A stretch of DNA of 60,000 bases, from contig VCMS01000327.1 in assembly GCA_022539475.1 (NCBI GenBank), forward strand, positions 1 to 60,000, written 5' to 3'. The stretch is from Gracilaria domingensis. Lineage: Eukaryota; Rhodophyta; Florideophyceae; Gracilariales; Gracilariaceae. The position numbers and the translations under genes are program-made. Position 1 is the first letter of the stretch. Every line of letters starts with the position of its first letter. The notes below the pieces were generated by a model. The model was not told where the DNA came from and did no database searches. It worked only from the letters and a program-made list of their open reading frames with translations. Shown piece by piece: positions 464 through 51,953 of the stretch.

Positions 464-1052
464 TGTAGCTATAGCTCGGTCTAGATCAACGGGGGCGTCT
501 ACAAGATCCTAAAGTGGTGACGTCACGGGCTCGCCGGGCACGTGTGCCTTCCTGTAACCACGTGGGACGGCGCAGCGCAAGGCTTTGGAACAAGACTAAA
601 TTAGTTTATTCCTCGTTAATTTAGAATTAATATTTACTAGGGTAGTGTAGATATGTGGGCCAGGGGTGATGCACGCACAAATGCCACCTCCCGGTGGCCC
701 ACGTGGCGCTAGGCCCGTGAGAGCCGGAGGGCGCTCGGGTGTACTAAACCCCCGAGACGCCAACCTCCCACACCAAATGGTAAAGTCAAGCACCAACTAG
801 GCTAATTTGACACCAGTTCGGTTCTACAGTCACCAATTGGTAAGTCTAGTAGTCCTCTAATAGTTTTGCTGACTCGAGGGTTATACGTGCCTGCCGCACA
901 CCAGTGCAGGCGTATTTACCACTTGGTCACCGTGCACTATAGGCAACGGTAGGTGCTGCCGACCTATTAGGTGTCACGTGTTTCACTCCTCCGCCGGGTC
1001 GAGCCCACGCAGGGCTCCCCACTAGCAGCTCGCACCGATCGGCTATACCACA
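464..1052 (+). repeat. Left LTR of element A
   Basis: Starts TGTAGCTATAG and ends CTATACCACA. With the extra C removed (the right copy reads TGTAGTATAG) the ends form an inverted repeat with TGTGGTATAG. It is 589 bp against 572 bp for the right LTR. Nearly all of the difference is about 20 single-base insertions between 464 and 760; the rest is almost identical to the right copy. A palindromic CACGTG box (558-565, 699-706) and CCANNTGG octamers at 773, 833 and 919 lie inside. Promoter and polyadenylation points cannot be placed by eye. Confidence 0.92.
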
Positions 1053-1057
1053 TATTT

Positions 1058-1075
1058 TGGTCTCCCGACCTAGAA
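1058..1075 (+). other. Primer-binding site of element A (tRNA-Tyr type)
   Basis: TGGTCTCCCGACCTAGAA, five bases after the LTR. Its complement ends GGGAGACCA, i.e. a tRNA 3' end with discriminator A73 and G72, hence a C1:G72 pair. That is the hallmark of eukaryotic tRNA-Tyr, and yeast tRNA-Tyr also ends CGGGAGACCA. The same site recurs in elements B, C and D. The tRNA gene itself is not in the window, so the assignment is inferred. Confidence 0.8.
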
Positions 1076-1184
1076 TTTGTGGATTACCAAGTGGTTTTGG
1101 GAAGAGAGGATTTGGAAGTCACGAGATACCCGAGTGGTTTGGTTCCCGTTGCCGAAGCAATTGGCTCCGACGCCAGTTACCTAA

Positions 1185-3448
1185 ATGGAGAAACGGGGCG
1201 CGCGCTACCCAAATAGGGTGCCGAGCGCTCCACCAAGTGGTCACCCCATACGGGGTTCAGTGTCCTATCCGGTGTTGGATAACCCGGAGGACCTGATTCG
1301 GAAGAACGCCCACCGAGGGGGAAGAAGGTAGACCGAGAGGCTGGGGGCCCCTCGACCCTTCCCGGGCTGACCAAGTGGACGGAGGAGCAGGCTCCGCAAG
1401 GGCGGAGCCCGCTCCTGTAACAACCCCAGTGGGTAGACCAAGTGGAGGTGCCAGTCGGACCGCGACTGGACTTGGACGAGGTCACCCGAGTGGTAGTTGA
1501 TCGAGCCTCCCAGGAGGTCCTCGACAAGGTACCTGTGGTGGTGTTACAGTACCTCGAAAACGAGGTGCGAGGACACATCGACCGATTGGTTATGCTGGCT
1601 CTGCAGCAGCAGGGGGCTAAGCTTCACCTGAGATGGTGGCCCAGGCCGCGCTCATGAAGCAAGCTCCCCCGCCTGCAGTAGACGCCACCAAACCACTTGG
1701 TATTCTCCACCCTAACCTTCCTACACAACCGACTGGTGAAGGATTTATCGACCGTATGGGGAAAGGGGCAGAGCCTCCAGGGATGGAGGGCCCGAGGTAC
1801 GTTTACCTCCCCCAACCTACTGGTGTAGCTCCGTCAGGACCAAATGGTGGAGACCTGATGGAGATTCGTCGAGCTCAGGAGACGAGCGTCGACGTAAACC
1901 AAATGGTAAGAAGAAGAAAACCAAAAGGGGAAAGAGAAAGAGTCGCCGGTCGGACTCGGACTCTTCGTCCTCAGACACCGATTCGGATTCGTCAGGAGAC
2001 GACGACCGTACAGGTTCACGACGCAAGAGGAAGGACTCTCGCAAGAAGAAAGGAAAGAATCCCCGCAAGGGTAAGACCAAAAGGTATAACGATTCGGACT
2101 CAACTTCCGACGAGGAGACTGACCTAGAGGTGCTTACACCGCTCAATGATTTATTCACCAAAGCGGTCGACTATCGTACCTATAGGTTAGAGAACAGACA
2201 GGCTGAGTATACCAAAGAGGTAGCTCAGAAGATAACGAAGCATCATAGGAAGCTTCGTTTCCAACTGGGTGAAACTCGCTTTAGCGGGGATGACCCTATT
2301 GCGGTCATTGATTTCCTTCAAAGGTTCAAGATCGCTTGTGATCAGAATGGGTTTTCAGAGGCAGCAGCCATGTGGCTGTTTCAATTTTACCTAACTGGTC
2401 AGGCTGGAGCGTTGCTCCACAGCCGCCTCCAAGGGAACACCATGGCGGTGGACGAAGACCAAACGGAAATGTTGACAACATACCCACAGGTGGTTAACTT
2501 CCTACTGGAAACCTACGCGACCGATGAGGTAATCCAGGAGGCGTACGCAGAGGTGCTTGCGTACCGCCAGCGCGCGGGACAAACCGAATTGGAATTCGCT
2601 CGCTCCTTATGGGCATTAGCCTCCCGCTGTGGGAGCGTCTTTACTACCAAAAGGTTGAAATCGATGTACGCCGACAACGTGGCGAAGTCTATCCGATCAC
2701 AGGTTCGTAACTACCTAGCTACCAACCGCACGGTCGACTACAACGCACTAGCCCGCCATGCACAGGGACTAGGCGACACCGTTCGGTCAGGGGCCAGGAA
2801 AGACTCCGCACCACTCGGCAAACCATCGAAGGAGAAAGGAAAGACCAGGCGGTCAGTGTTTGACGTAGAGGAAGAGGAGACCACTACGGGGAGGCGTCCA
2901 CACAATACGCCTCCCAGGGTCACCCAGTCCACTTGGTGCATGCACAACCGACAACTCGATCGCACGGTAATACCTCTTGGTCCAGCTCGCTATCCAGCGA
3001 GCCACCCTCAAGACAAACCTCAGCTCCACCATCACAGGTATCCGTACCGGTCAGCCCGGTCCTAGCGGTACCATTCAAGCAATATGGTGAACAAGGACCA
3101 TACCCGCAGCAGCGGAGTGCAGTACCTACTGGAGGCCGTCCCCCATCGCGCGCGTCGTCGCTCGCGATGAAGGACCCCACAACCGGCAATCTCCTCTGTT
3201 GGTTCTGTTTGTCGCCCCACCACTTGGCAACAGCGTGCCCAAGTGTGGCTCCGCAGAACAGGAACGCTCTCCTGACTGCTCGCCAGCAGAACCACCAGGA
3301 TATATTTGGGCCCCCGGCACGGAGCGCAGGCACGGGACACGCAAATGCGCGACCCAATGCAGCCACACCTCATCAGGTACACCTCGTCACGGAGCAGGAC
3401 CAAACGGATCCCGCCCCGCAGGCGGAAAACGCCGAACAGTTGGGATAG
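1185..3448 (+). pseudogene. Element A gag (capsid/nucleocapsid), broken into several frames
   Basis: The first plausible start is ATG 1185 (MEKRGARYPNRVPS), which resembles the basic, proline-rich N-termini of the other gags. The frame closes at 1329. Gag-like sequence then continues in other frames: a helical stretch from about 1442 (frame of DEVTRVVVDRASQEVLDKV), a proline-rich part from 1633, and the long capsid part from about 1857 to 2930. That part begins with a basic and Ser/Asp-rich KKKKTKRGKRKSRRSDSDSS region and continues through VLTPLNDLFTKAVDYRTYRL. The nucleocapsid part (about 2933-3448) has a zinc knuckle CWFCLSPHHLATAC (C-X2-C-X4-H-X4-C) and stops at TAG 3446. Each junction is a -1 step, as single-base deletions would give. 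These may be decay or uncorrected sequence error near the window edge. Confidence 0.75.
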
Positions 3449-3482
3449 AGGCCTTCCCCAACTGTCCGAAGACGGAAGGCCT
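3424..3482 (+). promoter_or_regulatory. Candidate -1 ribosomal frameshift signal with pseudoknot, gag/pol A
   Basis: The heptamer GGAAAAC (3424-3430) lies in phase with gag as G GAA AAC. After a 6-nt spacer (3431-3436) comes an H-type pseudoknot: stem 1 CAGTTGG (3437-3443) with CCAACTG (3458-3464), and stem 2 AGGCCTTCC (3449-3457) with GGAAGGCCT (3474-3482). The strands interleave as S1a-S2a-S1b-S2b. The gag stop TAG (3446) lies inside loop 1. Pol is in the -1 frame, as required. The heptamer is not a perfect XXXYYYZ (the P-site match is poor), but the A-site AAC-to-AAA slip is canonical. Confidence 0.6.
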
Positions 3483-6400
3483 TCCAGAACCAAGTGGTGC
3501 AAGTATGGACAATTACCCATTGGTTACAGGGGAGGAGAGCCTCATGGACGGCACCGAACCGATATGCTTTCTCAAGCATAGTAACTATAAGGTAAACGTC
3601 ACCCTCGGGTTTACTTCTAACCACTTGGTACCATGCGTCACTGTCCTGGACACCGGGGCAGGACCTAATCTGGTGAATGCCAAACTATTAACTAACAGAC
3701 AACTTAATAAGCTTCAGCCATGTACATTAACTAACCCACTGGTTGACGCCAACAACAGACCACTAACCGTCATGGGAGCGCTTACCATAATGGTATTGAT
3801 TGACACCATGAAGGTCCGAGTTCGCTTCATAGTCGTCAACCAACTGGCAACAGACTGTATCCTCGGAACAACTTTTATAGACCAGCATGTCAGGGCAATT
3901 TTTCCACGTTCTAAGACAGTTCTGTTCCACAATGGCCCCCGGATCGCCATTATTGGTAACCACAAGGGTGCCTCTCCGAAAGAGAACCGCACTCAACACC
4001 AACCGGTCCCGGAAAACACACTCTCCAACAAGGTGCGATTGGCAAAGGCGGTAACAATACCGCCTATGAACCACTTGGTAGTGAAGGTCACATGCCAACA
4101 ACCTGGCCTGTTATCCATTCAGAACCATTCACGGTTGGCCGAACGACACATGACCTTAATGGCGAATGGTATAGTCGACAACATACCGACAAAACCGTTT
4201 CAGGTCTACCTCAGTAACTTCAGCAACCGCCCGCTCAAGTTGCCAAAACACACCGTAATTGGTCTTGCCTTACCGGCTCCCCGTACGATCTTCACGATTA
4301 TACCACAATGGTCCCACGAGGTCGTGGATGCTAAGGAAGGGGGGGGCAGTGTCAATTCGTTCAATTCGTCGCGAACAGACCATATGGTGCAGCGACTAGC
4401 TGAGCGAGAAGACCAGAAACTGGAGCTCGACCCAGCGACCAATTGGAAGACGGAGGTGAATATAGGACTTGAAGGGGAAGAGCTCAGAGCTCGGATCCTT
4501 GGACTCCTGGAGCCATTCAGTACCATGTGGTCGGGTAAGCTGGGAGCCATTAAGGCCACCCAGCACAGGATTGACCTCAAACCGGACTCCCGTCCCATCC
4601 ACCAACAGCCATACCGCGCGGGACATAAGGCCCGTGAGGTAGAGCTGGAGGAGGTAGAGCGGATGCTCCGCGAGGGGGTTATAGAACCGGCAAACTCGGA
4701 ATGGGCTAGCCCTGTAGTGCTAGTCCAAAAACGAGGAGAGACCCGTATGAGGTTCTGTATTGACTACAGAAAACTTAATGCCGTAACGGTAAGGGACTCG
4801 TACCCCATCCCGAGGATGGATGAATGCATCGACTCCCTAGGAGATGCGAACATCTTTACCACACTGGACGCCAACTGCGGGTATTGGCAGATCGAAATAC
4901 CAGAGGGTGACCGTGATAAGACTGCGTTTACATGCCACGCAGGCCTGTATCGCTTCTTACGCATGCCGTTTGGTTTAAGAAACGCCCCCGCTACCTTCCA
5001 AAGGGCGTTAGACATCATACTGTCTAAAGTGAAGTGGACAACCGCATTGGTATACATAGATGACGTAGTCATCTACTCGAGGTCCATAGAGGAGCACTTC
5101 TCGCACGTCCAAGTGGTACTGCAGTTGCTACAAGAGGCAGGCGTGACCCTCAAACTACGAAAGTGTATGTTCTTCAACCAAGAGGTAGAGTACCTAGGGC
5201 ATACAATAAGCCCCGGGAAACTCGAAGTGACCAAACGGAATATCCGAGCGGTACAGGAAGCGAAGCTCCCTACGTCGCAGACGGACATACGATCCTTTAT
5301 AGGTCTATGCAACGTCTACCGGCGGTTCATCAAGGGTTTTGCAAAGATAGCCGCACCCTTGAACCGGAGGTTGCAGAAGGGGCAGCCCACACACTTTGAC
5401 CACCTGGAAGAGGACGAGGTAGAGGCGTTCTATACATTGAAAGCAGCGCTTCTCTCCCCACCGGTACTGGCATTGCCCAAAACGGGACTCCCGTATACAC
5501 TGGACACGGATGCGTCGGACGCCCAAATAGGTTGCTGCCTAATGCAGGAACAGGAGGACGGCAAGCTCGCACCAATTGGGTATTGGAGTAGAGCTCTTAA
5601 CCAAGCGGAGCAGAACTACACCGTAACGGAGAAGGAATGCCTAGCGGTTGTTTGGAGCATGCTCATGCTACGTCCTTACCTATATGGTGTGCGCTTCACG
5701 CTCCGAACGGATCACGACTCCTTGAGGTGGATATTAGGCTTGGCGGACGCATCGGGTCGTCTGGCCCGATGGCGTCTGAGACTCTCGGAGTTTGAGTACG
5801 ATGTGCAGTACCGACCCGGGGTCAAGCACCGAGTGGCGGATGCATTGTCCCGGTTGAATACCGAAGGATTGGACACTGACCCAGTGGACGACGACATCCC
5901 ATGCTTTACTATAGAACTAGCTAACCACGAGGTCAATGAAGTTCTGAAGGGATATTGGCATGATGACAGTACGTACCAAGTGGTAGTGGAGACCCTCCTT
6001 CCTGTGGAGGAAGGGGAACACGCTCCAATCACCCGTGAGGAATTCTTACGCGAACAATCGACCGATAGGCTGTGCAAAACGCTCGCTGACGTACTTGGAA
6101 GGAAGGATTCTCATTTCGACGTCGACCACAATGGGTACCTCATCAGACGCTCACCTTTAGACGGAGCTCTCCAGAAGGTCGTACCTGAGTCATTAAGACA
6201 AAGGGTGTTATATCTGTCACACAATCCACGGCTTTCGGGGCACCCTGGAGCCACGCGGTTGTACTATACCCTTCGGAGGCAATTCTACTGGCCGCATATG
6301 GCTAACGATGTATATACCTATGTGGCGCAATGCAATTCGTGCATTAAGACCCGAGGTGGTGTGGCGAAGCACAGGAAGTACCTAAAGCTATTCCCGGCGG

Positions 6401-7749
6401 CGGGGCCCCTGGAATTCGTAGCAATCGACATACTGGGGCCCCTGCCCAAGACCTCAGAGGGTTATCGCTTTGTAGTAGTCATAACCGACAGGTTTACAAA
6501 GCTCACCAGAGCCATACCCCTGAAGAACCAAACGGCAACGACACTAGCGACAGCCTTCCTGGAGAATTGGGTCTACCCGTACGGTGCTCCCATGTACCTA
6601 CTGACCGATAACGGTTCGAACCTAGCTTCTAAGTTCTTCGAGGCAGTTTGTACAATGCTAGGGGTCAAGCACTACTTTACCACGGCCTATCATCCGCAAA
6701 CAAACGGCCAAGTGGAACGCTTCAATAAGACCCTAGTGGCACGCCTACGGCACTATGTCGAAGAGCACCAAACCACATGGTCGGAGTATGTCCAACCATT
6801 GACATATGCGTACAACCTCCAGGTCCACAGGGTCACTCAAACAACCCCATTCGACCTGGTACTTTCGCGAACACCACATGGTATTATCGTCCAGCCCGGA
6901 CCTGACCGCTCGGAAGCGGCCGGGACACTCACACCGGCGAAGGTCAAGAGAGACATACTCCAGAAGTTACGCGCCGCTTTGGCTGCTGCCAAAGTTAAGA
7001 TGACAGCAGCCCAAGAACGGTATAAAGCGGACTATGACCGAACGGTGAGCAAAGTGACCAAAGTGGTAGCAGGAGACATGGTCTTCCTCGACGTGCCACC
7101 AAAAGGTAAGCGTCCAACCCCAGCGGAGATGGAAGAGGACATCCGCCTTGAGGAGGATATCAATTCTAAACTACTACCCAAGTCCACGGGACCATACAAG
7201 GTGATTCGCTCCGACGAGCATACCGCTACGGTCATAATGGAAGGTTTGGAGAACACGGTCTCCATCGACAGGATTGTCAAGGCCGCACAACCGACGACAG
7301 CGAATGCACAACCAATAGGTGAGCCAACGCAGCAGGAAGCGGAGAGGGAGCAAACGTCTCCCATGCACCCTCCTATGACGAGTCAGCCGAGCGGTCAACC
7401 TTCCACCAGAGCCGTAACGGCTGACCCCACGACCCAAACGGCACAGGAGATCAACCCTCGGCAAGACCAACGGGTCACACCACCCACGGGGAGCCACGCA
7501 CCCCATGACCAAATGGAAGAGTCACACCCTCAAGTAGACACTCAGGAGTGCGCTATTGACACCATTGTAGGTCACGAACACACCACAAAGGGTATGCGCT
7601 ACCGGGTAAGATGGTATGGGTGGTCGCCCGAGTACGACTCTATGGAACCACCTGGTCATATCCCTAACAACTTCATCATCCGATACTGGCGCAAACAAGG
7701 GCGAACGCCCCCACCAACTGGTATTGCTTCGCGTGGTACGCGTCGCTAA
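3430..7749 (+). CDS. pol: Element A pol polyprotein: protease, RT, RNase H, integrase, chromodomain
   Basis: Open from well before the gag stop to TAA 7747, in the -1 frame to gag. The ORF itself opens at 3199, but its first part overlaps gag in a different frame, so I start it at the slip site. Domains in order: aspartic protease with VLDTGAGPNLV (about 3643-3675); reverse transcriptase with FCIDYRKLN, MPFGLRNAPATFQ and YIDD (about 5052); RNase H with LDTDASD, TEKECLAVVW and RTDHDSLRW; integrase HHCC finger (about 6220-6345) and DDE core with AIDIL (6425), TDNGS (6604) and GQVERF (6704); and a C-terminal chromodomain with VRWYGWSPEYDSMEP (about 7551-7720). All catalytic residues are present and there is no internal stop. 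Chromodomains of this kind steer integration to modified histones. A polypurine tract overlaps the stop codon. Confidence 0.95.
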   Translation, partial: RRTVGIEAFPNCPKTEGLPEPSGASMDNYPLVTGEESLMDGTEPICFLKHSNYKVNVTLGFTSNHLVPCVTVLDTGAGPNLVNAKLLTNRQLNKLQPCTLTNPLVDANNRPLTVMGALTIMVLIDTMKVRVRFIVVNQLATDCILGTTFIDQHVRAIFPRSKTVLFHNGPRIAIIGNHKGASPKENRTQHQPVPENTLSNKVRLAKAVTIPPMNHLVVKVTCQQPGLLSIQNHSRLAERHMTLMANGIVDNIPTKPFQVYLSNFSNRPLKLPKHTVIGLALPAPRTIFTIIPQWSHEVVDAKEGGGSVNSFNSSRTDHMVQRLAEREDQKLELDPATNWKTEVNIGLEGEELRARILGLLEPFSTMWSGKLGAIKATQHRIDLKPDSRPIHQQPYRAGHKAREVELEEVERMLREGVIEPANSEWASPVVLVQKRGETRMRFCIDYRKLNAVTVRDSYPIPRMDECIDSLGDANIFTTLDANCGYWQIEIPEGDRDKTAFTCHAGLYRFLRMPFGLRNAPATFQRALDIILSKVKWTTALVYIDDVVIYSRSIEEHFSHVQVVLQLLQEAGVTLKLRKCMFFNQEVEYLGHTISPGKLEVTKRNIRAVQEAKLPTSQTDIRSFIGLCNVYRRFIKGFAKIAAPLNRRLQKGQPTHFDHLEEDEVEAFYTLKAALLSPPVLALPKTGLPYTLDTDASDAQIGCCLMQEQEDGKLAPIGYWSRALNQAEQNYTVTEKECLAVVWSMLMLRPYLYGVRFTLRTDHDSLRWILGLADASGRLARWRLRLSEFEYDVQYRPGVKHRVADALSRLNTEGLDTDPVDDDIPCFTIELANHEVNEVLKGYWHDDSTYQVVVETLLPVEEGEHAPITREEFLREQSTDRLCKTLADVLGRKDSHFDVDHNGYLIRRSPLDGALQKVVPESLRQRVLYLSHNPRLSGHPGATRLYYTLRRQFYWPHMANDVYTYVAQCNSCIKTRGGVAKHRKYLKLFPAAGPLEFVAIDILGPLPKTSEGYRFVVVITDRFTKLTRAIPLKNQTATTLATAFLENWVYPYGAPMYLLTDNGSNLASKFFEAVCTMLGVKHYFTTAYHPQTNGQVERFNKTLVARLRHYVEEHQTTWSEYVQPLTYAYNLQVHRVTQTTPFDLVLSRTPHGIIVQPGPDRSEAAGTLTPAKVKRDILQKLRAALAAAKVKMTAAQERYKADYDRTVSKVTKVVAGDMVFLDVPPKGKRPTPAEMEEDIRLEEDINSKLLPKSTGPYKVIRSDEHTATVIMEGLENTVSIDRIVKAAQPTTANAQPIGEPTQQEAEREQTSPMHPPMTSQPSGQPSTRAVTADPTTQTAQEINPRQDQRVTPPTGSHAPHDQMEESHPQVDTQECAIDTIVGHEHTTKGMRYRVRWYGWSPEYDSMEPPGHIPNNFIIRYWRKQGRTPPPTGIASRGTRR
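4330..4346 (+). other. Internal polypurine tract 1 of element A
   Basis: GCTAAGGAAGGGGGGG, read in pol as AKEGGG between protease and RT. The same 16-mer recurs at 7745. Equivalent tracts sit at the same place in pol of C (43484) and D (55245). Probably a central plus-strand priming site; see findings. Confidence 0.55.
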
Positions 7750-7763
7750 GGAAGGGGGGGGGG
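7745..7763 (+). other. Internal polypurine tract 2 of element A, overlapping the pol stop
   Basis: GCTAAGGAAGG followed by a run of G. The TAA inside it is the pol stop codon. It repeats the tract at 4330 exactly over 16 bases. It lies 3.4 kb downstream of that copy and 3.5 kb upstream of the tract at the 3' LTR, so the three are almost evenly spaced. Confidence 0.55.
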
Positions 7764-7901
7764 TTATCGAAGCCGTTGAACGCCACGCTACACGAAAAGC
7801 TAACTAACTAACCTAACAGGAAAACAAAAGAAGATCAGAGATCACAATGCAAGACACTTTATTAGTCGAGAAGAATCCACGAGAGGGAACCACGAGGTGA
7901 C

Positions 7902-10628
7902 TTAGGAGGCCTTGGAGGACCCACGGCCACGTCCGCGTCCACGACTGGTTCCACGACCGCGACCACGTCCACGGGAGGTCCCGCGAGATGAAGCGGAACC
8001 TCCACGACCAGAGGACACCGACATAGGTCCGGCGGAGCTTCCGCCCCCGCCGCTAGCCGCGCTCGGTGGCGCACCACCACTTGGTAAGGGAGCAGAAGTA
8101 CCAGCAGGTCCCGCAGGGGTACCGCTGCTGACTACCGGCATGGTATTCGCAGGACCAGTGGGTGGATGGAAGGAAGGCGGTAAGCTAGACGGAGGGATGC
8201 CACCAGAGGTCGGAGGAGCAAGACCACTAGACGGCCCTGCACCGGGGGTCAGACCAGTAGGCGGCCTAGGAGCACCGGACGTCGGCGGAAGCGGAGCCGA
8301 ACGGAAACCAGTTGAGAAACCACTTGGTGCTCCTGTCCCAGTACTTGCTGGAGGAAGAGGAACGTTGTGAGGACCAAGCGGAGTATGGAAAGGGGCCGAA
8401 GAATCACCACCAGGAGGTCCACCAGGGAGTTGATACGTACCAAGGCCACCAAAGCCTACCATTGGGGTCGCAGGTTGCTGTGACGCAGGAGCGTACGGGT
8501 TGAAACTTTCCACCGGGGGTCGATGTAACGGCGCGTGGCCTTCCACAAGGTTGCTCAACTGACCAACATAGGCTGTCACCTCACGGTAGAGATTGCGCTG
8601 GAAGTAGTCGCGGAACTGTCGCAGCTCAGAAGTGCGCCGCTCGTGGTGAGCAACCACGGGGAGCAAGTTGGTAAGAGTATCCACAGCGGTGAGGATGTCA
8701 TTTGGACCAGGACGGTTGAAGTGCACCATCGAGGCGTGGTTGAGACGAGCCAGAGCGCTCCGTATCGCGCCACTATCACCACCAGGGGGCACCGGATTCA
8801 CCGGAAGCGACTGGAAACCAACCCGAAGAGGCCCCTGGGCAGCCCGTCCGGGAGGGTGAGCAGCCGCCTGAGGGTTCGCCGGACCACTTGGAACAGGCGC
8901 AGCCACGCTGGTCGGAGGAGTAGCCTGTACAGGTGCCGACGGAGGCAATGCGGGGGACTCATAGTTCTCGGCAGCCACCATCACGGTATCGTCATTACCA
9001 AATGGGTCTTCGCCAGCCATGTGCTGCTGTGGGAGAGGCACGATGCTATGAACCTCCGGGTCGTAGACATCCCAACCCTGTTCAGGCCCCCAATTGTAGT
9101 TACTTACCGCAGTGAGGTAACCATCCAACTGCTGCGCAGTATATTTGGTGCCCTCCACGATGTTGGAGAGCCCCATGGCACGAATGTCGCCGACCACATC
9201 GTTGGGAATGTTGAAGATACGACCAACTGGTTGAGTTCCGCTGATCCCGACAGACTTGTCAGGGCAACGCGTGTCCCAAGTCACACCTTCCACGGAAGCC
9301 TGAAGGGCGAGGATAGCCACCATGACGGCCCACTCGCTGCGTGCGACCGACCAAACGGCATATGCGTTGTTCCTATCGAGGGAGATGCTACTACCAAAGT
9401 ACGCAAGGACCGGCGGGGTCGGCACTTCCAGCCACTGGCATACTTCATAGTGGTCCCACCAAGAGGGTCGATTGACATACCATGCCCGGCGGTTCTGGTC
9501 GCTCTGCGACCAATACTCAACGTTGTGGAACAGGAACATGGTCCTCGTACGGTTGTTACGGTGACGAACACGGCTCTCAGCCATCGCATCGGTCGCCCAC
9601 CTCCCACGGTCGGTCCAATAGTTGGTATCTAAAGGGCGCTCGAACGCGACGTAATCCAGATCGACCTCGATATGGGTAGCAGGTTCGTCCAAGCGGTGAA
9701 GGATATCGACCAAACGGCGAAAGTAGTGGACCTCCCCATCGCAGCGGATGAAGGGGAGATCCGACGGTATGGCCACGGGGATATAGTACAGGAACTTCGT
9801 GTGCCGCTGCCGCGCATGGAAACACTGTTGTCGACCGAACCGGCTCTGCTTCTCGCCCTTGCGTGGAGGAGGAGGCGCCATAGGCACCGCCTCCAAGCGG
9901 CGACAATCCCAACGAGCAATCGTAGTATACTGCTGCAGACTCATGTGGCGAAACCGCAAGGGGCAGAAGGAGGAACTGATGTGGAAAGGCCAGTTCCCCA
10001 GAGCGACCAACTCGGTAGAGACATCAGCAAATCGCGCACCATAGTGGGCATGCGGCTGCCCGTGCGTCCTGTTAAGGTCATGAGGATTCAGCTGTTGAGC
10101 TTCCACCGTACCAGCGACCGCAAGAGGGTTGACGCTGCTCGGACCGGCGGCGGCCGCATAAGGATCATACCCACCGCGACCGTACGGATCTTGACGAGCG
10201 CGTGTACTCGACCGCGTGTTGGGTTTGAAGATGCCACCGCCACGGCCGCGCGCCACCCCAGGGGTTTTGCCGGACATCCTCGACCGGGCGACAGCGGTTT
10301 CGCGAACCGAGCGGGTGGCTTCAGATGAGGGGGAAACTTCAGAAGCGGAATATCCCTTTATAGGGTCGTAGTGCGGCTCATCCAGTACCAATTGGTTGGC
10401 CACCACGGGGGCCTCAGCGCCCGATGGAATGGACACGGGTGTACCGGCCTGGCATGGCAGATAGAGCTGCGAAGGTTCAACCGTGTGGTAACTCGACTGA
10501 AGCGGCGCTGCTTCGTCCCCGTGATCTACCATATTGGAAGGAGAGGGAGCGGTAGTCTCTTCAGTTTCGTCTTCACGGCGTTCGAACGTCATTGACCACC
10601 CCGTTGGGGAGGCTGGTCGTTCACCCAT
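7902..10628 (-). CDS. Antisense-ORF protein of element A (908 aa, unknown function)
   Basis: A long uninterrupted gene on the strand opposite to gag-pol, between pol and the 3' LTR. The frame is open up to 10679, but the first ATG in it is at 10628 (MGERPASPTGWSM). Layout: an acidic/Thr-rich N-terminus, a basic stretch with SRMSGKTPGVARGRGGG, an aromatic-rich core of about 350 residues (roughly 9050-10050), a long Pro/Gly/Ser-rich tail, and a C-terminal RGG-type box (SRGRGRGRGTSRGRGRGRG) just before the stop. The core shares EVC...EVPTPPVLAYFGSS and VWSV..SEWA with the antisense protein of element C (EVC...ELPPCLTYVGS, WWSV...EWE), in the same order and spacing. RGG boxes usually bind RNA or G-rich nucleic acid. 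I recognise no known domain. The mature mRNA, promoter and any introns are unknown. Confidence 0.82.
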   Translation of the reverse strand: MGERPASPTGWSMTFERREDETEETTAPSPSNMVDHGDEAAPLQSSYHTVEPSQLYLPCQAGTPVSIPSGAEAPVVANQLVLDEPHYDPIKGYSASEVSPSSEATRSVRETAVARSRMSGKTPGVARGRGGGIFKPNTRSSTRARQDPYGRGGYDPYAAAAGPSSVNPLAVAGTVEAQQLNPHDLNRTHGQPHAHYGARFADVSTELVALGNWPFHISSSFCPLRFRHMSLQQYTTIARWDCRRLEAVPMAPPPPRKGEKQSRFGRQQCFHARQRHTKFLYYIPVAIPSDLPFIRCDGEVHYFRRLVDILHRLDEPATHIEVDLDYVAFERPLDTNYWTDRGRWATDAMAESRVRHRNNRTRTMFLFHNVEYWSQSDQNRRAWYVNRPSWWDHYEVCQWLEVPTPPVLAYFGSSISLDRNNAYAVWSVARSEWAVMVAILALQASVEGVTWDTRCPDKSVGISGTQPVGRIFNIPNDVVGDIRAMGLSNIVEGTKYTAQQLDGYLTAVSNYNWGPEQGWDVYDPEVHSIVPLPQQHMAGEDPFGNDDTVMVAAENYESPALPPSAPVQATPPTSVAAPVPSGPANPQAAAHPPGRAAQGPLRVGFQSLPVNPVPPGGDSGAIRSALARLNHASMVHFNRPGPNDILTAVDTLTNLLPVVAHHERRTSELRQFRDYFQRNLYREVTAYVGQLSNLVEGHAPLHRPPVESFNPYAPASQQPATPMVGFGGLGTYQLPGGPPGGDSSAPFHTPLGPHNVPLPPASTGTGAPSGFSTGFRSAPLPPTSGAPRPPTGLTPGAGPSSGLAPPTSGGIPPSSLPPSFHPPTGPANTMPVVSSGTPAGPAGTSAPLPSGGAPPSAASGGGGSSAGPMSVSSGRGGSASSRGTSRGRGRGRGTSRGRGRGRGSSKAS

Positions 10629-11272
10629 GGGGTATGAAAGGAGCGGAATGGAGCGAGAGCGCGCCACGGAGGACACCAATTGGAAAGGGGAACACCACCA
10701 CTTGGATGACAGATGAGACCTGAGGGGTCACGGAGAACTCGCACGCTCGAGTGAGCTGACACACCGTGAAAATGACCAGATTGGTGCGCAAGCTGCACGA
10801 GTTTCGGGAACACGAGAAGTCACAACCACCACGAGGGGGCCGTGTGCCGATCGGTCGACAACTACGAACCCCACCGACGGGAAGCTCGAAACCAACTGGT
10901 AAGCCGGGACTAACCCGCCCAGGGGGAGGACGGACAGGGGAAGATGGAGTGGCGGACTCCTCCGGGAGGGACCGAAGAGGCGAAGACAACCACGTGGTAC
11001 CAGGCGCGCGACAAGATCAACCTGAATGGTCGCGGTTCGCGGTTTCGCGTTCCAATACCACGAGGGATGCAAGGTACGGTCGTACCTACCACAGGGGGTA
11101 CGGCGGCGTGGGTAATGGTGCTGCAGGGCATGTGGCGAGCCGCGCCGTGCACCGCGCCGTCTCCGCGTCATCGCGAGACGTGTTGTGCGCCAGGCGACGC
11201 GCGCCAACGACCGTTTGGCGAAAAGGCGGCAACCGCCGTGGGAACTTCGCAGCCACGGGGCGTGCCTGTCGG
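10629..11272. other. Non-coding region between antisense gene and 3' LTR of element A
   Basis: Overlapping opposite-strand ORFs here show no family resemblance and look like GC-rich noise. It holds four CCANNTGG octamers (10676, 10698, 10892, 10990). By position it is the promoter and 5' leader of the antisense gene. I see no clear TATA element. Confidence 0.4.
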
Positions 11273-11283
11273 TAGGAGGGGGG
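11273..11283 (+). other. 3' polypurine tract of element A
   Basis: TAGGAGGGGGG, two bases upstream of the right LTR (TGTAG at 11286). This is the expected plus-strand primer position for an LTR retrotransposon. It differs slightly from the two internal tracts of the same element. Confidence 0.8.
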
Positions 11284-11285
11284 TC

Positions 11286-11857
11286 TGTAGTATAGCTCGG
11301 CTAGATCAACGGGGGCTCTACAAGACCAAGTGGTGACGTCACGGGCTCCCGGGCACGTGTGCCTCCTGTACCACGTGGGACGCGCAAGCGCAGGCTTGGA
11401 CAAGACTAATTAGTTTATTCTCGTTAATTTAGAATTAATATTTACTAGGTAGTGTAGATATGTGGCCGGGGTGATGCACCACAAATGCACCTCCCGGGGG
11501 CCCACGTGGCGCTAGGCCCGTGAGAGCCGGAGGGGCGCTCGGGTGTACTAAACCCCCGAGACGCCAACCTCCCACACCAAATGGTAAAGTCAAGCACCAA
11601 CTAGGCTAATTTGACACCAGTTCGGTTCTACAGTCACCAATTGGTAAGTCTAGTAGTCCTCTAATAGTTTTGCTGACCTCGAGGGTTATACGTGCCTGCC
11701 GCACACCAGTGCAGGCGTATTTACCACTTGGTCACCGTGCACTATAGGCAACGGTAGGTGCTGCCGACCTATTAGGTGTCACGTGTTTCACTCCTCCGCC
11801 GGGTCGAGCCCACGCAGGGCTCCCCACTAGCAGCTCGCACCGATCGGCTATACCACA
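11286..11857 (+). repeat. Right LTR of element A
   Basis: 572 bp, starting TGTAGTATAG and ending CTATACCACA (inverted-repeat ends). It matches the left LTR closely after 690. It lacks the extra single bases found in the first 300 bp of the left copy, and its better terminal symmetry suggests that it is the correct sequence. Followed by CTTCC. Confidence 0.93.
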
Positions 11858-11862
11858 CTTCC
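11858..11862. repeat. Target-site duplication of element A (right copy, CTTCC)
   Basis: Identical to 459-463. It resumes the interrupted gag of element B. Confidence 0.92.
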
Positions 11863-13407
11863 GATGAAGTGGACGTTATCAGCGTCACCGACAGCGGTTT
11901 CACGTCGCAAAACCGACATCGATGGTGACGAACTCTCCGCGAGTAGCGCTTTCGAGCGGCGCTGCCCCGGGTTGCGGGCTCGATACGTCTCTCCTTTCGC
12001 CTGGGCGTAATTAACCAACTCTAGGTACGTCATTCGGCGTTTTTCCTCGCGTCGGCGAGCGACCAACGACCGAATGGTGGGGTCCAAACCATCAACAAAC
12101 ATGGTACACCGCTCCTGTGCGGAATACACATTACCACATCGGTGAAACGCTTTGTTCAACCGCGTTGAATAAACCGTTTCAGATTCTCCACTCTTCTGTC
12201 TAGTGTCGCGAACAGCAAGAGTAGCGCTGTAAATCGCGTTGGAAGTCGCGTACGACCTGAGAAGGTAGTTCACGGCTTCCGGCCAACACGTGACTCCTCC
12301 TTCCGAGGCTCTCGAGGTTCCTCGAACTGAGTTGTACTGATCTTCCGCAGTCCCTGTTAGGAAGTACGGCAGTGCCACATATGCCTGTGCTTCACTCATA
12401 CCGAGTATATCGGCCTCCTGGACGAACCTGGCAAGGAAATCCAAGATAAGGATAGGATCTGTCCCCGAGAACTTCCTTGTTTCAAGGGTAACATTCAACC
12501 TTCGAATGTAGTCCTTCACCTTACCGGTTCCTCGCGAGGAGCGATTCGAAGTAACATCCTCCAACCGATAATAGCGGTACGACAACAGCTTTGTGTAGAG
12601 CGGGTCCGTCGGCTTTAACTCTTTGAGTCCCAAGTGGCGCCGTCCTTTCACGCGTGATCTCATCACTGCCTGAGTAGACTGCGTCGCTTTCGACCGTGTC
12701 GAACGTGACCTATGACGGTTGTCATCACTATCAGATGAATCTGACGAACTGTCTTCAGTCATGCCGCTCGAGTCAGAGCGCGATGAATCCGAATCATAGT
12801 GAACTCGTTTTGGGTGTCGACGTTTCTGCTTCACCGAACGATGGTCTTCATCCGCAGATGGATTTCCTTGAGGAACCTGTGCGTCCACAGCTTCATCCAT
12901 ACGGATTGTATCCTCCAGCGTTTCCAAGCGCGAACGAATTCGACCGATATCGGTGCGCATTTCCTCGACAAATGCCCGGTACTCCGTGACGAAGACGTCT
13001 GGGGTACCCAGATTTTCCATAATGGAATTCACGTCCCTTCTCAGAAGACGTAAGTCTCCTGAGACATCCCTCACCTGGGCATTATCAACCTGCGTCCTCA
13101 ACGAGGTAACATCCTGTAGGAGTTCCACGTGAGCAGCGTGATTAATATCCAAGCGGGATTCCAACCTAGCCAACTCGGCTACGGTAGCAGCGTTAGGGTT
13201 AACCATGGATGGTGTCTCAACGACGGGTTGAGCAGAACCCACGTTTTCCTTAGGTGCTTCCGTAACTGAGCGCGTTCTCCGGGGGCGGGGTACGACCTCA
13301 AGAGGTTGCGCCTCATCTGGGATAGACCGGGACGTCGGTGCAACGGGTGGAACCGCAGCTGACGACCGCGCTGAACCAGCTCGAGAACCTCGAGGCGGTT
13401 GCGGCAT
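11863..13407 (-). pseudogene. Element B gag, proximal half (capsid), interrupted by element A
   Basis: Starts at ATG 13407 (MPQPPRGSRAGSARSS). The frame is open further upstream to 13476 but has no earlier ATG. Layout: proline-rich N-terminus, a coiled-coil stretch (LESRLDINHAAHVELLQDV), a basic/Ser-Asp-rich region with SDSSRSDSSGMTEDSSSDSS, then the capsid. The capsid carries GGVTCWPEAVNYLLRSYAT and CGNVYSAQERCTMFVDGLDP, nearly the same as in the C and D gags. The frame is intact for about 515 codons and then runs into the LTR of element A at 11857. The rest is at 1-463. B therefore belongs to the same clade as C and D, while A is more distant. Confidence 0.88.
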
Positions 13408-13630
13408 ACTGGAAACCAGTAGGCAATCTGATCCAGATGATCCAGTTAAACTCGTACACGAGTCCCCAAAGAACAAGAAAACTCAATAAACCTTCTCGGT
13501 AAACCACCACGTCAGCGGTTCACGTTCAAAAGTTGTCAACCTCCAAAACTCTAAAGAGTCCCCTGATCGTTGTCAGAAAACGGTGATCCGTCAACAATCA
13601 AGTCAATTCCACGACAGTGACCTAAAACGG

Positions 13631-13648
13631 TTCTAGGTCGGGAGACCA
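13631..13648 (-). other. Primer-binding site of element B (tRNA-Tyr type)
   Basis: On the minus strand it reads TGGTCTCCCGACCTAGAA, identical to that of element A. It lies three bases inside the LTR edge at 13652 and about 220 bases upstream of the gag ATG. This fixes the orientation of element B and the end of its 5' LTR. Confidence 0.88.
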
Positions 13649-13651
13649 CTT

Positions 13652-14470
13652 TGTGGGGCAAACTCGGAAGAGTGAAACCCACCAGACTGTCCGAAGGTCC
13701 GCTCTCGTGAGAGATGGCAGACCAGTGACAGAGCCCTCTGTACCACCGTAACTCGGTTGTAAGGCCGAAGTGGCAACTGGCTATACCTACAGAGGTGATA
13801 GGCCACGTGGTGAGGAAACGATGAGAAACTCCAGAGATGGGGTGGTATCGGCAACGATGAAACACGACCAACGACAGGTGTAGTCCCGAGAGGGAAAGCA
13901 ACAGAAAACAACAACCAAACAACACCCACACGCGACGGGTAGGGCCTCCTCGGCACTGTGCCCGGAGCGGGGCGAGATCCTCCAACGGTAATGCACGGGT
14001 TTCCGTAAACACGGCAAAACTCTATACAGAGTCGGATCACTTCGTAATCTAGTCCTATACCTCCTCGGTACGACCCTCAGGTCCCGACATCAACGACAGA
14101 TGTTCCTCAAAGGTACCGAGAGGGTAGGACCACCGTAACCAGACGTGGCTATACTCGCGAGAGTGATAACCCACGTAGGCGGTTGGCGCCAGAGCCTCAC
14201 TCGTGTAGAGTCCACTCAGGAGAGCGCTACTCGACAAAGAGTTCACTTAGAAGTGCTCGGGTTGACTTTACAAAGGTGCTCGCGACGACGAGGTCGAGCT
14301 CACCTAAGTAGGTCTAAACTAACTATGTACACGTGGTGCACACCCGCAGGGGTCCGTACACGTGGCTAGCCCAGTGTCAGGCACCTCAGGTGCACTACCT
14401 ATTGTCCCGTAATATGCACACAAACGGCGGTGTAGTACACGCGTCTACCTAGCGGTATTGGCCAGCAATG
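13652..14470 (-). repeat. 5' LTR of element B (outer end unresolved)
   Basis: Begins (plus-strand view) with TGTGGGGC just outside the primer-binding site. No gene-like ORF occurs in this stretch. I cannot find a matching CCCCACA outer end. The segment probably stops near 14,470, where transposase coding sequence begins, and may be truncated there. A short similarity to the D LTR (GTTGCCAT followed by GG-rich sequence) occurs near 14,460-14,475 on the minus strand. Confidence 0.55.
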
Positions 14471-14480
14471 GCAACCCTGA

Positions 14481-15584
14481 TTACAGGTAACTGTGGGAAA
14501 GCCATTCCAAAAGTAACCGCCAAAATTGGGTCCAACTCATAACTCTTCGAGTGCATCCTCGTATCACTCCCCTGAGTATATGAGGCGCATCATCCTGATA
14601 ACCACGCAAAATGCGTTGCTCTACATCTACAACGGTTCGAATGTAGTCGTTGATATGTTTCAAAACCTCCGGCATATTTTCTTGGTCAACCGACCCATTC
14701 TCGCTCAGCAGAATGCGCGTCTGGCCAGGGCACCACTCTTGCTCTGACATCCAGTGAGGCATACCTCTTTCGTTCCGGAATTCTTCTTTGGGCAATGGTT
14801 CCAACCAGCTGGCCATTCTTTTTTTCCCTGACACAATGAGAAGCAAAGGTGCGATGTCACCTGCTGCAGACGCGCATATCCCGGCAGTGACGTGCTTTCC
14901 ATGATCTTTGATACCAAGACGCGTTCCTGACTTGCGTGAGTTAGAAGCAGTGTAGCATCGAATCTTCTTGCCGTACTCAGGGAGCACAGCAGTTTCGTCG
15001 AAATTCCATATCCTGTGCGGGTCAGTTAGCATGCCTGGATGTTTTTTTCGCAGCTTCTCAAGAACATCCTTCAAAGTCTTCACGTGCTGATAGTTTTCGG
15101 CAGCCAACCTTGCAACTGTAATGTTCTCAGCGCAACGAAATGTCATCTCGCGATTTCGAGCTCTGAACAAACGAATTGCATCGTCCGACGGTAAACCTTT
15201 CGCGTATTCCCGACGTCCATCAGCGGCTATTCGACCATGCAGTTTTTTCATCTGCTCATGTCCCACTGCAAAGCCGCGTTGAGCTGCGTAGATGCATTTC
15301 TCTACAATGAGAGTTTCTTCTGCTGGTTCTAGAACTGGTCTGCGGCCTGCGTGGTTTTGTACAGGATCCAACAGTTTGTTTAGATCAGATTTGTTGTTTG
15401 TTCTAAGTGTTTTGCGAATGCGGAAGGTGGTGGTTGTGGACAGTCCTGCGGAGGATGCAGCACTACGAACTGTATCGCCTCGTTGAAGAAGTTCAACAGC
15501 GGTTTTGCGCCTTGCTCGCTCTTCTTTTCGCTGTTTCAGTTGGCGCTTGTGCCTGATGGATTGTAGACGCATTGAGGGTGGCAT
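14481..15584 (-). pseudogene. pogo/Tigger-like DDE transposase, C-terminally truncated
   Basis: ATG 15584 (MPPSMRLQSIRHKRQ) is the first ATG; the frame is open a little further. There is an N-terminal helix-turn-helix region (VRSAASSAGLSTTTTFRIRK), then a CENP-B-like segment, and the DDE_1 catalytic start RIWNFDETAVLPEYGKK. A second acidic motif, GYQDDAPHI, lies where the family has its second Asp. The sequence then changes character (TQFWRLLLEWLSHSYL) and stops without the third catalytic region. At 368 codons it is shorter than a normal transposase, so it is probably inactive. It abuts the LTR of element B, so one of the two probably cut into the other. Confidence 0.75.
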
Positions 15585-39164: not shown

Positions 39165-39980
39165 TGTAGTGCAACGCGATTGCGGGACTCCTTCGCTGAT
39201 GCGATTCATAACATGCACGGCGATGCCGGGAGGTGGTGGCACACAGTATGAGTAACTGGTGAGATCAGCCCATTCTTGGGTATACTTAATATTAGAATTA
39301 GTGTTATGAGGCGCACGGCTTAGCCGGTGGGTCACACACGTGTGGGAAGTTTGCACCCATTAGTTGGGGTATTTTAGATGTTTATTCTAGATATTTTCGC
39401 TACACCGCTTGACAGTGGGTTGGCACTCTACACTACTTAGTAGGTTGAGCTGCACCCATTGTCGGGGAAGTAAACGAACCAACCGAGTGTTCGGCTCTGA
39501 TGTTTCACCCTTGGTGACCGATATCCTCCTCCCGGAGAGTCGGCACCTTGTGCAGGGCTCATCATCCGCCTCGCGGCATCATTAACACCACTACCGCTTT
39601 CGCGTGTTTACTTTGTGTGTGTTTTCTTTATTTCTGTCCCTGTTATACAGGTAGCACTACTTGGTGTACCGGTGCATACCGTTCGTGGCTCGACACACTC
39701 GCGTGGGCTATTACCGCTCTCGCGTGTCATCGCCACACTCGTGGGTACCGCGTGCTACGCACGTGACGCTACTGCCGACTTGTGTCGTGTGTTCTCTACC
39801 GCTGGACGCTTCTTCTTCGCCGCTTCGCTCCCTCCATTACTTGGGAAGGGTCGACCCCGGTCTTACACCCGGCATTGCCGTGTCGTACCTGTGGGAGCGC
39901 TCTACTGCTGTGCTCGCCTCTTGAGAGAGGGTCTGAACCGCCTTTGCGTGTCTTTCCCCATCGCTGGGTTTTGCACAACA
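39165..39980 (+). repeat. Left LTR of element C
   Basis: 816 bp, from TGTAGTG to CACAACA. It matches 50711-51526 across its length with one C/G difference at its eighth base. The small ORFs inside are the same in both copies only because the LTRs are identical; they are not genes. The region after about 39,590 is CGCG- and CGTG-rich. Confidence 0.95.
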
Positions 39981-39982
39981 AT

Positions 39983-40000
39983 TGGTCTCCCGACTTAGAA
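39983..40000 (+). other. Primer-binding site of element C (tRNA-Tyr type)
   Basis: TGGTCTCCCGACTTAGAA, two bases after the LTR. It differs by one base from that of A and B. The leader from here to the gag ATG at 40421 is about 420 bp and has no clear ORF of its own. Confidence 0.85.
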
Positions 40001-40420
40001 GTCGCGTTGATCCAGCAAGTTGGTTTTCTGATCAATTTCCGGTTTGCCGGTTCGTATCTGGTCGTGGAGATACACTACACAGTTTCTACTGGAAGGCTTT
40101 GCCGACAGACTTCGTGTTGGTACTGCTTTCCTCATTTTGGGTTGTTGTTTGGACACGGTTTACTACCGGTGGCACTACCTATTTCCGTAGTGTGTGATTC
40201 CCGTCGGTACGGTTGTTGTCACCCCGTTTGGGTTGTCTACTGTTCCCAGCAATCTGGTCGAATCAGCCCTAATTCCGTATACGGCTGTTCCCGTTGGTAC
40301 GGTTGGTTCGTCCGATTTGTCGGTTATCGTCACTCGTGTGAGGACGCTACACTCATTCGAGGTTAATTTGTTGTTTTGCTTTCCTGTTCCCAGTTTTCTG
40401 GTTGTATCTCGTCGTGGACG

Positions 40421-42503: not shown

Positions 42504-42533
42504 GTACGGGAGTCTCCAATGGAGAGGCGCCCG
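42494..42533 (+). promoter_or_regulatory. -1 ribosomal frameshift signal at the gag stop of element C
   Basis: The slippery heptamer GTTAAAC (42494-42500) is in phase with gag as G TTA AAC and is followed directly by the gag TGA. A -1 slip gives GTT AAA CTG AGT and enters pol. After a 6-nt spacer a hairpin begins: CGGG (42507) with CCCG (42530-42533), and TCTCC-AAT-GGAGA inside. GUUAAAC is a heptamer known to work in some nidoviruses. Elements A and D have comparable arrangements. Confidence 0.72.
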
Positions 42534-43483
42534 AGTCGAGGTCTACGGCGCCCGAGGCGTCACCGCCTCGCTCCCAGGTCAAAATCCTTTCGAGGAAACA
42601 GACCGTCTTAGACGTGGACTCTACCACCATCGGTGTGTTACGTCGCCCGTGGATACGGTTCAGGAACAACCGGATCCCGGATCGAGTCATGGTGCTGGCC
42701 AAGCGAAACTACAAGATATTTGCTGACCTTGGCCTATCCACCCAGTATATGGTGCGTCATCTCTCTGTCTTGGATACAGGTGCTGGCCCCAACTTCATTG
42801 TTGAGTCGTTACTACCGCCGGAAGTCCGTTGTCGAGTCCGCTCTGGACCCGTCATGGACGTGGCAGATGCTAACAATAACCCGTTACAAACGGCTGGAAT
42901 GGTTTCACTGATTGTCAGGATTGGTAACTGCATCGAGCAGGTAGAATTCATCGTCTGCAAGACGCTCGCTGCCCCTGTCATTCTAGGGTGTGACTTCTGC
43001 GACAGATATGTCGAAGCCATACGACCGCGTGCGCGTGAAGTGGAAATGGAAGATGGTTCGGTTGTACCGATTGTTCGTCGCTCATTACGCCGAGCGTCAG
43101 CTAAGCTGGTACCACTACCCGCTCCTCTACAGGATTCCTCACCTCCGAAGGAGTCGCCGAAGCTCCGCGTAGCGCGTGCAATTTCTATTCCGCCAGAATC
43201 CCAGGTTTGGGTTGATGTTACTGCCGCACCGCGTGGTTTGCGGGTTGTTCAACCATTGAACTCGTTATACGAGAAGTATCAGGTCGCGTTGGCGAACGGA
43301 GTTGTTCAAATCAACAGCGAACACCCCTTTCGGGTTATGTTGGCCAACTTTGGCAAGAAGCCCCAGTATCTGGTGAAGAACCAAGTAATTGGTACTGTCT
43401 TACCGCACCCTACGGCGCTTATCCCTACAAAGGTGACTGCCGCCGAGATGCTCGGGCTTGCTGAAGAACGCACTGGTTTGCTT

Positions 43484-50631: not shown

Positions 50632-50697
50632 GCCGACGTGCTTAAATACACTCCAGAGGAGGAAAGCGAAACCGCTCGCGTGGTCGTCTCGCACCCT

Positions 50698-51950: not shown

Positions 51951-51953
51951 AAA

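Follow-up and report, generated by a model that had tools for sequence, protein, structure and literature searches.

Dense short dyads with family-specific codes along Ty3/Gypsy retrotransposons of the red alga Gracilaria domingensis: a possible self-identity code

Why would a retrotransposon repeat the same few bases dozens of times along its whole length? The question is raised by contig VCMS01000327.1 of Gracilaria domingensis (assembly GCA_022539475.1), of which the first 60,000 nucleotides of the forward strand (the window) were analyzed. Element A, at 464-11857, is saturated with the palindromic octamer CCANNTGG. A preliminary description of this DNA had claimed at least 48 copies where about 3 are expected. 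Two further elements of the window, D (39165-51010) and the incomplete E (from about 51.3 kb on), are probably those called C and D in that description. They were included together with loci taken from the same genome (77.9 Mb, 680 contigs), which are designated by L-numbers. Arrays of short dyads were found in A, D, E and their relatives, in a form that differs between families. Our tentative reading, which we would put at somewhat short of even, is that such an array serves as a self-identity code, dense and specific to the family, for a putative element-encoded protein to read.

The octamer was counted 49 times inside A and 13 times in the remaining 48.6 kb of the window. Markov simulations of order 1 to 3 (100 each) gave means of 3.7, 6.2 and 6.9 for A, with maxima of 12-14, in agreement with the saturation first claimed. 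Genome-wide, 25,991 copies correspond to 0.33 per kb, 13-fold below the 4.3 per kb of A, for which the genome average would predict about 4; the reversed control pattern occurs 16,276 times. Within A the octamer is preceded by A in 42 of 49 cases and followed by T in 30. The form ACCA-NN-TGGT, to which most copies were said to extend, is present 28 times, and that statement barely holds. When all 3+3 dyads with gaps of 0-7 were scanned, ACC-N4-GGT (61), CCA-N2-TGG (49) and ACC-N5-GGT (37) led all others. The octamer is therefore the inner part of an ACC...GGT dyad whose spacer is flexible, and the real unit is ACC-N4/5-GGT (61 + 37).

This bears on the suggestion that the octamer is an E-box core (CANNTG) for basic helix-loop-helix factors. 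The enrichment extends to ACC-N5-GGT, whose spacing does not fit CANNTG (37 compared to 8.0 in shuffles), and the E-box was rejected. The coupling of the two arms and the avoidance of an additional outer pair, described below, would also be unexpected for a double-strand motif read by a dimer. Periodic spacing was rejected too, with a coefficient of variation of 0.93 in A compared to 0.92 for random sites and a similar result in L039. Sites in L041 are more clustered than random. In D the spacing is a little more regular (0.74 compared to 0.84, a value as low being reached in 2.2% of simulations).

Across the LTRs (long terminal repeats), leader, gag, pol, antisense gene and 3' non-coding part of A, the density of ACC-N4/5-GGT is 6.6-12.2 per kb throughout; the preliminary description had placed the octamer in the same parts. 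The coding parts were compared with a codon-preserving null, in which synonymous codons were shuffled within each open reading frame (ORF) while protein and codon usage were kept (300 shuffles each). In pol (3499-7749) there are 16 octamers (mean 5.1, maximum 13) and 32 ACC-N4/5-GGT dyads (mean 8.8, maximum 15). The antisense ORF holds 6 octamers (mean 1.3, maximum 5) and 21 dyads (mean 4.8, maximum 12), and a gag piece (2130-2936) holds 11 dyads (mean 2.1, maximum 6). Octamers alone number 3 in that piece (mean 0.8), which 7 of 300 shuffles reach. The sites thus lie on both coding strands and in non-coding parts, and their excess survives a codon-aware background. This argues, as had been proposed, that the signal acts as nucleic acid.

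Do the other elements of the window share this word? That related elements hold few octamers was correct (2 in D, 3 in E), but they carry dyads of their own, which are denser than those of A. Element D (forward strand; repeated ends 39165-39464 and 50711-51010, the LTR being at least that long) comprises gag (40376-41929, +), pol (42614-48053, +) and an antisense gene (48586-50694, -). Element E (51300-60000, +) runs past the window end and is 64% identical to D over the aligned gag-pol part. Both are rich in generic dyads of the form C-NNN-(3-5 nt)-N'N'N'-G, whose arms are variable yet complementary; they are about 3-fold saturated and no fixed word is dominant. C-outer dyads number about 267 in D, which is one every 44 nt. 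Its inverted repeats with arms of at least 4 number 171 at gap 3 (49 expected) and 164 at gap 4 (48 expected), and are near expectation above gap 6. In pooled D-type DNA with 4-bp stems and loops of 3-4, C-G forms the outer pair, at 6-7 times the shuffled frequency. The inner pairs can be any Watson-Crick pair (1.5-5.6 times), with G-C ahead of A-T at the second pair and the two about equal beside the loop.

Under the codon null, dyads of gap 3-5 exceed the maximum in D gag (63; mean 23.3, maximum 36), D pol (146; 52.3, 73), the D antisense ORF (74; 33.3, 50) and E pol (76; 30.6, 49). The control gaps 9-11 show no excess in these four frames. Along the window, the dyad excess is located at about 12-15 kb and 39-60 kb, and at 15-39 kb the ratio to expectation is 0.78-1.45.

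A reverse transcriptase (RT) search of the genome for relatives of A (119 of 2449 candidates scored, identical to A down to 62%) extended the comparison to pieces of 12 relatives. ACC-N4/5-GGT ranks with the strongest signals in L039, L040, L041, L043, L045 and L046, and is weaker in L044. L043 is a copy of A (98.6% nucleotide identity); L039, L041, L044, L045 and L046 form one group at 82-93%, and L040 is separate at about 69-73%. L042, L048 and L050 are one family (95.8-99.7%) with another code, CCG-N2-CGG, present 34 times (8.1 expected) in 9 kb of L042 and 20 times each in 3.5 kb of L048 and L050 (2.7 and 2.9 expected). This code also exceeds the codon null in pol (21; mean 5.5, maximum 12) and gag (8; 1.4, 4) of L042. 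In L049 the code is CCG-N4-CGG (16 vs 2.6) and CCG-N3-CGG (12 vs 2.3). The thinnest case is L047, with CCC-N3-GGG (10 vs 1.9). Codes differ by family within one genome, and at least three clearly different ones coexist. The element specificity originally suggested was thereby borne out, with a different form in related families, as with the targets of VANC proteins.

The arrays seem to belong to one Gypsy clade, and four sampled elements of another Gypsy lineage are without them. In that lineage no dyad excess was found in L080 (25 vs 35), L081 (24 vs 34), L082 (23 vs 32) and L002 (43 vs 35), of which L080 and L082 are one family (98.5%). L080 has CCG-N9-CGG 5 times (0.4 expected), slightly over the shuffle maximum. 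By comparison, 92 dyads (32 expected) are present in L083, whose pol is about 70% identical to that of D. In pol, A, L042 and D are 46-50% identical to one another and 32-36% identical to the array-free lineage. Ten Copia loci served as a further control. L074 shows a clear excess (87 vs 49) and carries a D-type LTR and leader by tblastx. L073 shows no excess in total (59 vs 49), but has CCG-N2-CGG 6 times (0.6 expected) and a D-type gag flank. A mild, unexplained rise is seen in L070 (70 vs 55, z 2.4), and the remaining seven loci have z of 0.3-1.3. In five host ORFs neither gap 3-5 dyads nor the ACC dyad exceeded the codon-shuffle maximum.

In what form is the nucleic acid read? Coupling between arms was tested against permutations in which partner bases were exchanged among sites of one locus and one spacing. 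Earlier pooled sets were redundant (L043 is a 98.6% copy of A, the L039 group is 82-93% identical, and E and L055 are 92.7% identical), and the test was repeated on strictly non-redundant sets. In D, E and L056 (458 CC-N8/9-GG sites) the two inner pairs are Watson-Crick in 218 and 212 cases, compared to 122.1 and 116.6 expected. In A, L039 and L040 (226 sites) the inner pair is formed in 95 cases (74.1 expected), and in L042 in 45 of 94 (33.4 expected). One more outer pair is avoided, with 84 of 458 (118.5 expected) in the first set and 34 of 226 (55.6 expected) in the second, and 0 of 2000 permutations as low. In A alone it is formed in 12 of 91 sites (22.4 expected; 5 of 1000 permutations as low). 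The second outer pair of L042 is formed in 15 of 94 (23.7 expected). Because independent half-sites on a double strand would yield neither coupling nor avoidance, these results suggest that a folded single strand is the form read. A motif on the sense strand was tried and rejected: ACCAAA (23 vs 4) and A-rich loops looked directional, and the effect was gone when lone ACC and GGT were used for comparison.

Further comparisons addressed whether the sites are kept over time. For element A, 28 other copies were compared with the window copy, with L031 (15% divergent) and the first 520 columns excluded. Site bases carry 7 substitutions in 4032, compared to 682 in 73,848 outside dyads, 167 in 20,102 for other N4/5 dyads and 60 in 10,663 for lone ACC or GGT. 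Third codon positions alone give 3 of 1344 at sites and 400 of 24,579 elsewhere. With L053 as reference against D, substitutions affect 3 of 547 stem bases, 79 of 2677 outside, 13 of 249 in loops and 3 of 164 in control dyads (gaps 9-13). With D as reference, stems, outside and control bases have 3/609, 32/2587 and 1/160 against L052, and 23/608, 108/2539 and 5/160 against L054. Between L052 and L057 stems are slightly higher (4/601 vs 13/2597). Stem rates are below outside rates in 14 of 15 within-family comparisons, which use three references and are not independent, and control dyads are often low too. The substitution evidence for selection on sites is therefore mixed, and lower substitution within them could be demonstrated in part.

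At greater distance the sites move. From D to E, 44 of 225 dyads are kept, compared to 10 of 110 for control gaps. Of the 12-13 sites of A in the RT-integrase region, 7 are kept in L039, 3 in L041, 2 in L040 and 3 in L046; for other dyads it is 8-12 of 89-94. Meanwhile, about 3-fold saturation is seen in every D-type piece over the range of 63-99% identity to D. Density, not position, is kept, and since positions turn over while density stays, it is density that seems to be selected.

The anatomy of A provides the candidate readers of such an array. A is classed as Ty3/Gypsy by its LTRs and its Gypsy-order pol (RT, RNase H, integrase). It is flanked by a target site duplication, CTTCC (459-463 and 11858-11862), and has a 5' LTR at 464-1052 (+; 6 ACC-N4/5-GGT) and a 3' LTR at 11286-11857 (+; 7, counted from 11285), both placed by LTR alignment. 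A putative primer-binding site beginning TGG follows the 5' LTR (1058-1070, +). The Gag region extends over several frames (1633-3448, +; 20 dyads) and contains a CCHC knuckle, CWFCLSPHHLATAC, near 3197-3238. The pol frame (3199-7749, +; 33 dyads in 3449-7749) matches RT, RNase H, integrase and a borderline chromodomain in Pfam; the last (PF00385) scores 25.0 bits in A, with a cut-off of 25.1, and 39.8 in L042. The antisense gene (7902-10679, -; 21 dyads) is a 925-aa frame with an RGG-rich C-terminal tail, and is followed by a 3' non-coding part ending in a G-rich polypurine tract (10680-11284; 5 dyads).

The antisense protein has a conserved core (9045-9929, -). An alignment of 11 open sequences, from which L060, L066 and L067 were excluded (longest open frame below 270 aa), has 33 invariant columns. 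The core of A is 31% identical to the antisense ORF of L042 over 297 aa and 26% identical to that of D over 193 aa (profile E 1.4e-13). A piece of it is found in L040, which places the gene beside arrays in A, D, L040 and L042 (L042 208-2556). At least 137 genome matches to the L042 core are among those listed (135 of 468 candidates scored). The RGG-rich tail is present in A and L042 and absent from D. The full-length antisense frames of A, L042 and D match no Pfam family, PF04195 included; the 11 cores gave a weak PhoR match in one and nothing else in Pfam, and their profile had no match in the PDB. When 5.8 billion proteins were searched with the 925-aa query, scored on residues 240-560, no homologue came up at E ≤ 0.001. 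A later search based on the aligned cores reached only proteins of about core length and says little. An AlphaFold model of the core from two sequences (mean predicted local distance difference test score 31.7) was not used.

For the Gag protein, a CCHC knuckle was found in the Gag regions of A, L039, D and E, four of the seven stretches scanned. The Gag frame of the L042 family (L042 6986-8998) is without a C-x2-C-x4-H-x4-C knuckle.

From these data it is proposed that short dyads built on a C/G-rich core would be kept at high density in one Gypsy clade, with one code per family: ACC...GGT in A and nearer relatives, CCG-N2-CGG in L042, CCG-N3/4-CGG in L049 and C-NNN...N'N'N'-G in D and E. An element-encoded protein would bind many such weak sites on one molecule and so recognize its own kind. 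The Gag nucleocapsid would come first among the candidates: marks along the entire length suit packaging, and the knuckle is found in A, L039, D and E. The antisense protein would be the second. Co-operative binding could then select the element's own genomic RNA (gRNA), and later its complementary DNA (cDNA), for packaging and reverse transcription, and co-resident families would thereby be kept apart. The presence of family-specific codes in one genome fits such avoidance of cross-packaging. The protein reader, its origin in the element, folded single strands of gRNA and cDNA as the form read and the purpose of self-recognition are what we infer. More tentative still is a wider version, which we would give about one chance in three: the clade writes a diversifying self-code of Watson-Crick dyads that are selected for symmetry (in D and E largely not for sequence), kept distinct between co-resident families and read by a putative element protein.

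A number of results do not sit well with this proposal. Taken alone, neither A (39/91 vs 33.3) nor L040 (11/39 vs 10.0) shows significant coupling of the inner pair. Stem length is not strictly capped, as stems of exactly 6, 7 and 8 bp number 11, 7 and 3 in A without its 3' LTR (5.0, 1.0 and 0.3 expected) and 8, 3 and 1 in D (5.3, 1.2 and 0.3 expected). RNA hairpins normally tolerate G-U; here, G-T pairs are no more frequent than A-C pairs. There is no strand preference either, with an asymmetry z of at most 1.8 against lone ACC and GGT. RNA folding, taken as mean z of 100-nt windows on the plus and minus strands, is -0.75/-0.59 in A, -0.33/-0.57 in D, -0.57/-0.58 in E and -0.55/-0.33 in L039, hardly stronger than in host DNA (-0.19/-0.19; array-free Gypsy -0.18/-0.08). 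A stem required in both gRNA and minus-strand cDNA could not use G-U, which turns into A-C on the other strand, and such a two-strand requirement would reconcile most of these points.

The conservation data have similar weaknesses. The copies of A share ancestry, and distinct polymorphic columns were therefore counted; by that measure the difference is not significant (5/144 vs 241/3356, p 0.096). Stem conservation in D is weak: against L053, stems changed at 12 of 609 bases, compared to 3 of 160 in control gaps 9-13 and 70 of 2587 outside, and control dyads are often equally little changed. Between D and E there is no excess of two-sided compensatory changes. The codon null left exceptions as well. 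The L042 antisense ORF is not enriched for its code (4 vs 2.2), the control gaps 9-11 are above the maximum in A pol (65 vs 48.3, maximum 63) and nearly so in L042 gag (35 vs 24.3; 5/300), and they are raised in two host ORFs (27 vs 15.5, 2/300; 24 vs 14.9, 4/300). The host stretch 13.6-39.1 kb, which includes a D-type remainder, has 148 dyads at gap 4 (106 expected). In the host part 15000-39100, CC-N8/9-GG is weakly coupled (33/87 vs 23.0; 10/1000 permutations), and the host part also has an excess of exact 6-bp stems (25 vs 10.1). As to the readers, the three other stretches scanned, in L041, in L042 and at 11.8-13.6 kb, lack the CCHC pattern. The antisense core was not detected by profile in the fetched L039 (9.0 kb) and L041 (8.5 kb), which should just reach it if they share the spacing of A. 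Nor does L039 have an antisense frame of at least 120 aa after pol; the antisense candidate is weakened by this.

Are similar arrays found in other systems? The Su(Hw) array in Drosophila gypsy, which had been named as a parallel, also places several protein sites inside an LTR retrotransposon. It is one localized cluster with a host zinc-finger reader; unlike it, the A-type arrays span the whole element. No such arrays are described in the titles and abstract openings listed by literature searches on Gypsy antisense or additional ORFs, retrotransposon inverted repeats and hairpins, LTR-element RNA structure and palindromes, the octamer, or family-specific motifs. In Arabidopsis VANDAL elements, element-specific motifs also differ between related families and are accompanied by an extra element-encoded protein, VANC (PMC5735166). 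The VANC-like array that had been suggested stands as far as a family-specific motif array goes. The VANC21 motif, however, is a single sequence in non-coding regions (PMC5735166); VANC, an anti-silencing protein, binds it as double-stranded DNA and removes methylation, whereas here coding and non-coding parts are filled, the arms are coupled, the elements are LTR retrotransposons and the reader is putative.

For RNA viruses, assembly has been proposed to work through dispersed packaging signals (PMC6281560). As in MS2, satellite tobacco necrosis virus and parechovirus, many short, coding-compatible sequence-structure sites that share a recognition motif are spread over the genome (PMC6281560). 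Unlike these signals, the loops of D and E have no fixed sequence, their arms vary and the sites reach one per 44 nt; pairing is coupled, but without G-T excess or strand asymmetry. Retand and other plant Gypsy elements similarly have an antisense gene between pol and the 3' LTR and family-specific repeats (PMC11963269, PMC7264820). In Retand the antisense product belongs to PF04195/TRP28 and tandem repeats occupy one region, unlike the PF04195-free frames and element-wide dyads found here. Yeast Ty3, also a Gypsy-type element, uses a palindrome for RNA dimerization (PMC11381356). Only one palindrome near the 5' end was functional of six candidates tested, in contrast to a saturating array, and the packaging sequences of Ty3 are "not precisely defined" (PMC11381356).

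The main rival to a self-identity code, possible though doubtful in our estimate, is a chromatin reader of the VANC kind. A homodimer, perhaps the antisense product, would bind double-stranded dyads on the integrated element and counter silencing or regulate transcription, with family-specific targets co-evolving with the protein. The lack of strand preference and wobble and the small effect on folding energy would follow readily, and the cores in A, L042 and L049 are sequence-specific palindromes of the dimer type. Family-specific codes occur together with an antisense gene in A, D, L040 and L042, and the antisense ORFs of plant Retand are predicted to be DNA-binding (PMC11963269). However, two independent half-sites would not yield arms that vary yet remain complementary, as in D and E, nor does such a reader fit the avoided pair outside the dyad or a spacing that floats between N4 and N5. 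L039 and L041 bear the ACC dyad in stretches where the antisense core went undetected, and the core is conserved at its 33 invariant columns though the codes differ. A host factor that binds or modifies DNA might instead recognize the dyads, for example as an integration or silencing signal, which we consider improbable. Nothing speaks for it specifically beyond the dyads in LTRs and non-coding parts; co-resident families carry different codes, host DNA at 15-39 kb is near expectation, and why an element would maintain its own silencing mark is hard to see.

Could the dyads arise with no reader at all? Self-copying at quasi-palindromes during reverse transcription or repair would build short, perfect and functionless inverted repeats. 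Strict Watson-Crick pairing, the variable arms of D and E, loops of 3-5 nt and positional turnover are all what this process would leave. Recent substitutions are nevertheless not clustered in stems (the 14 of 15 comparisons above, in which controls were often low too), the sites of A are sequence-specific and rarely changed, and the outer pairs are not random, one more being avoided and that of the D type being C-G. We regard templated mutation as quite improbable. Lower still, and only a slight prospect, we would place hairpins that act physically, by compacting genomic RNA or by impeding silencing or annealing, with no specific reader. The hairpin-like statistics of D and E, slightly negative folding z and preference for G-C over A-T at the second stem position agree with such a role. 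Against it, folding is strengthened only slightly and to a similar degree on the two strands, G-U is unused, and fixed ACC/GGT and CCG/CGG arms are favored.

Some further features of the sequences were recorded. Between 464 and 700, the 5' LTR of A differs from the 3' LTR by many closely spaced single-base insertions, which look like assembly or base-calling noise; the remainder is near-identical. Directly adjoining the 3' LTR is a D-type gag ORF (11848-13476, -), part of a D-type piece (11848-14900, -) rich in generic short dyads, and A is therefore adjacent to, or within, another element copy. On contig C94, three RNase H matches of one Gypsy family (3381, 11506 and 19631) lie exactly 8,125 bp apart, a tandem arrangement. 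Copia RT matches are concentrated on few contigs (C435, C344, C354, C447 and C54), which could be centromeric.

The wider question is how retrotransposon proteins tell their own RNA or DNA from that of related families. The coexisting codes of one genome offer a statistically comparable case, with the sampled array-free Gypsy elements and Copia as internal controls. The codes also give ready predictions for binding. The results suggest that many synonymous sites of transposons can be constrained for symmetry, which bears on the use of synonymous sites as neutral. If the proposed self-code is true, these elements would mark their own nucleic acid by a means that is neither the usual sequence motif nor a stable RNA structure.

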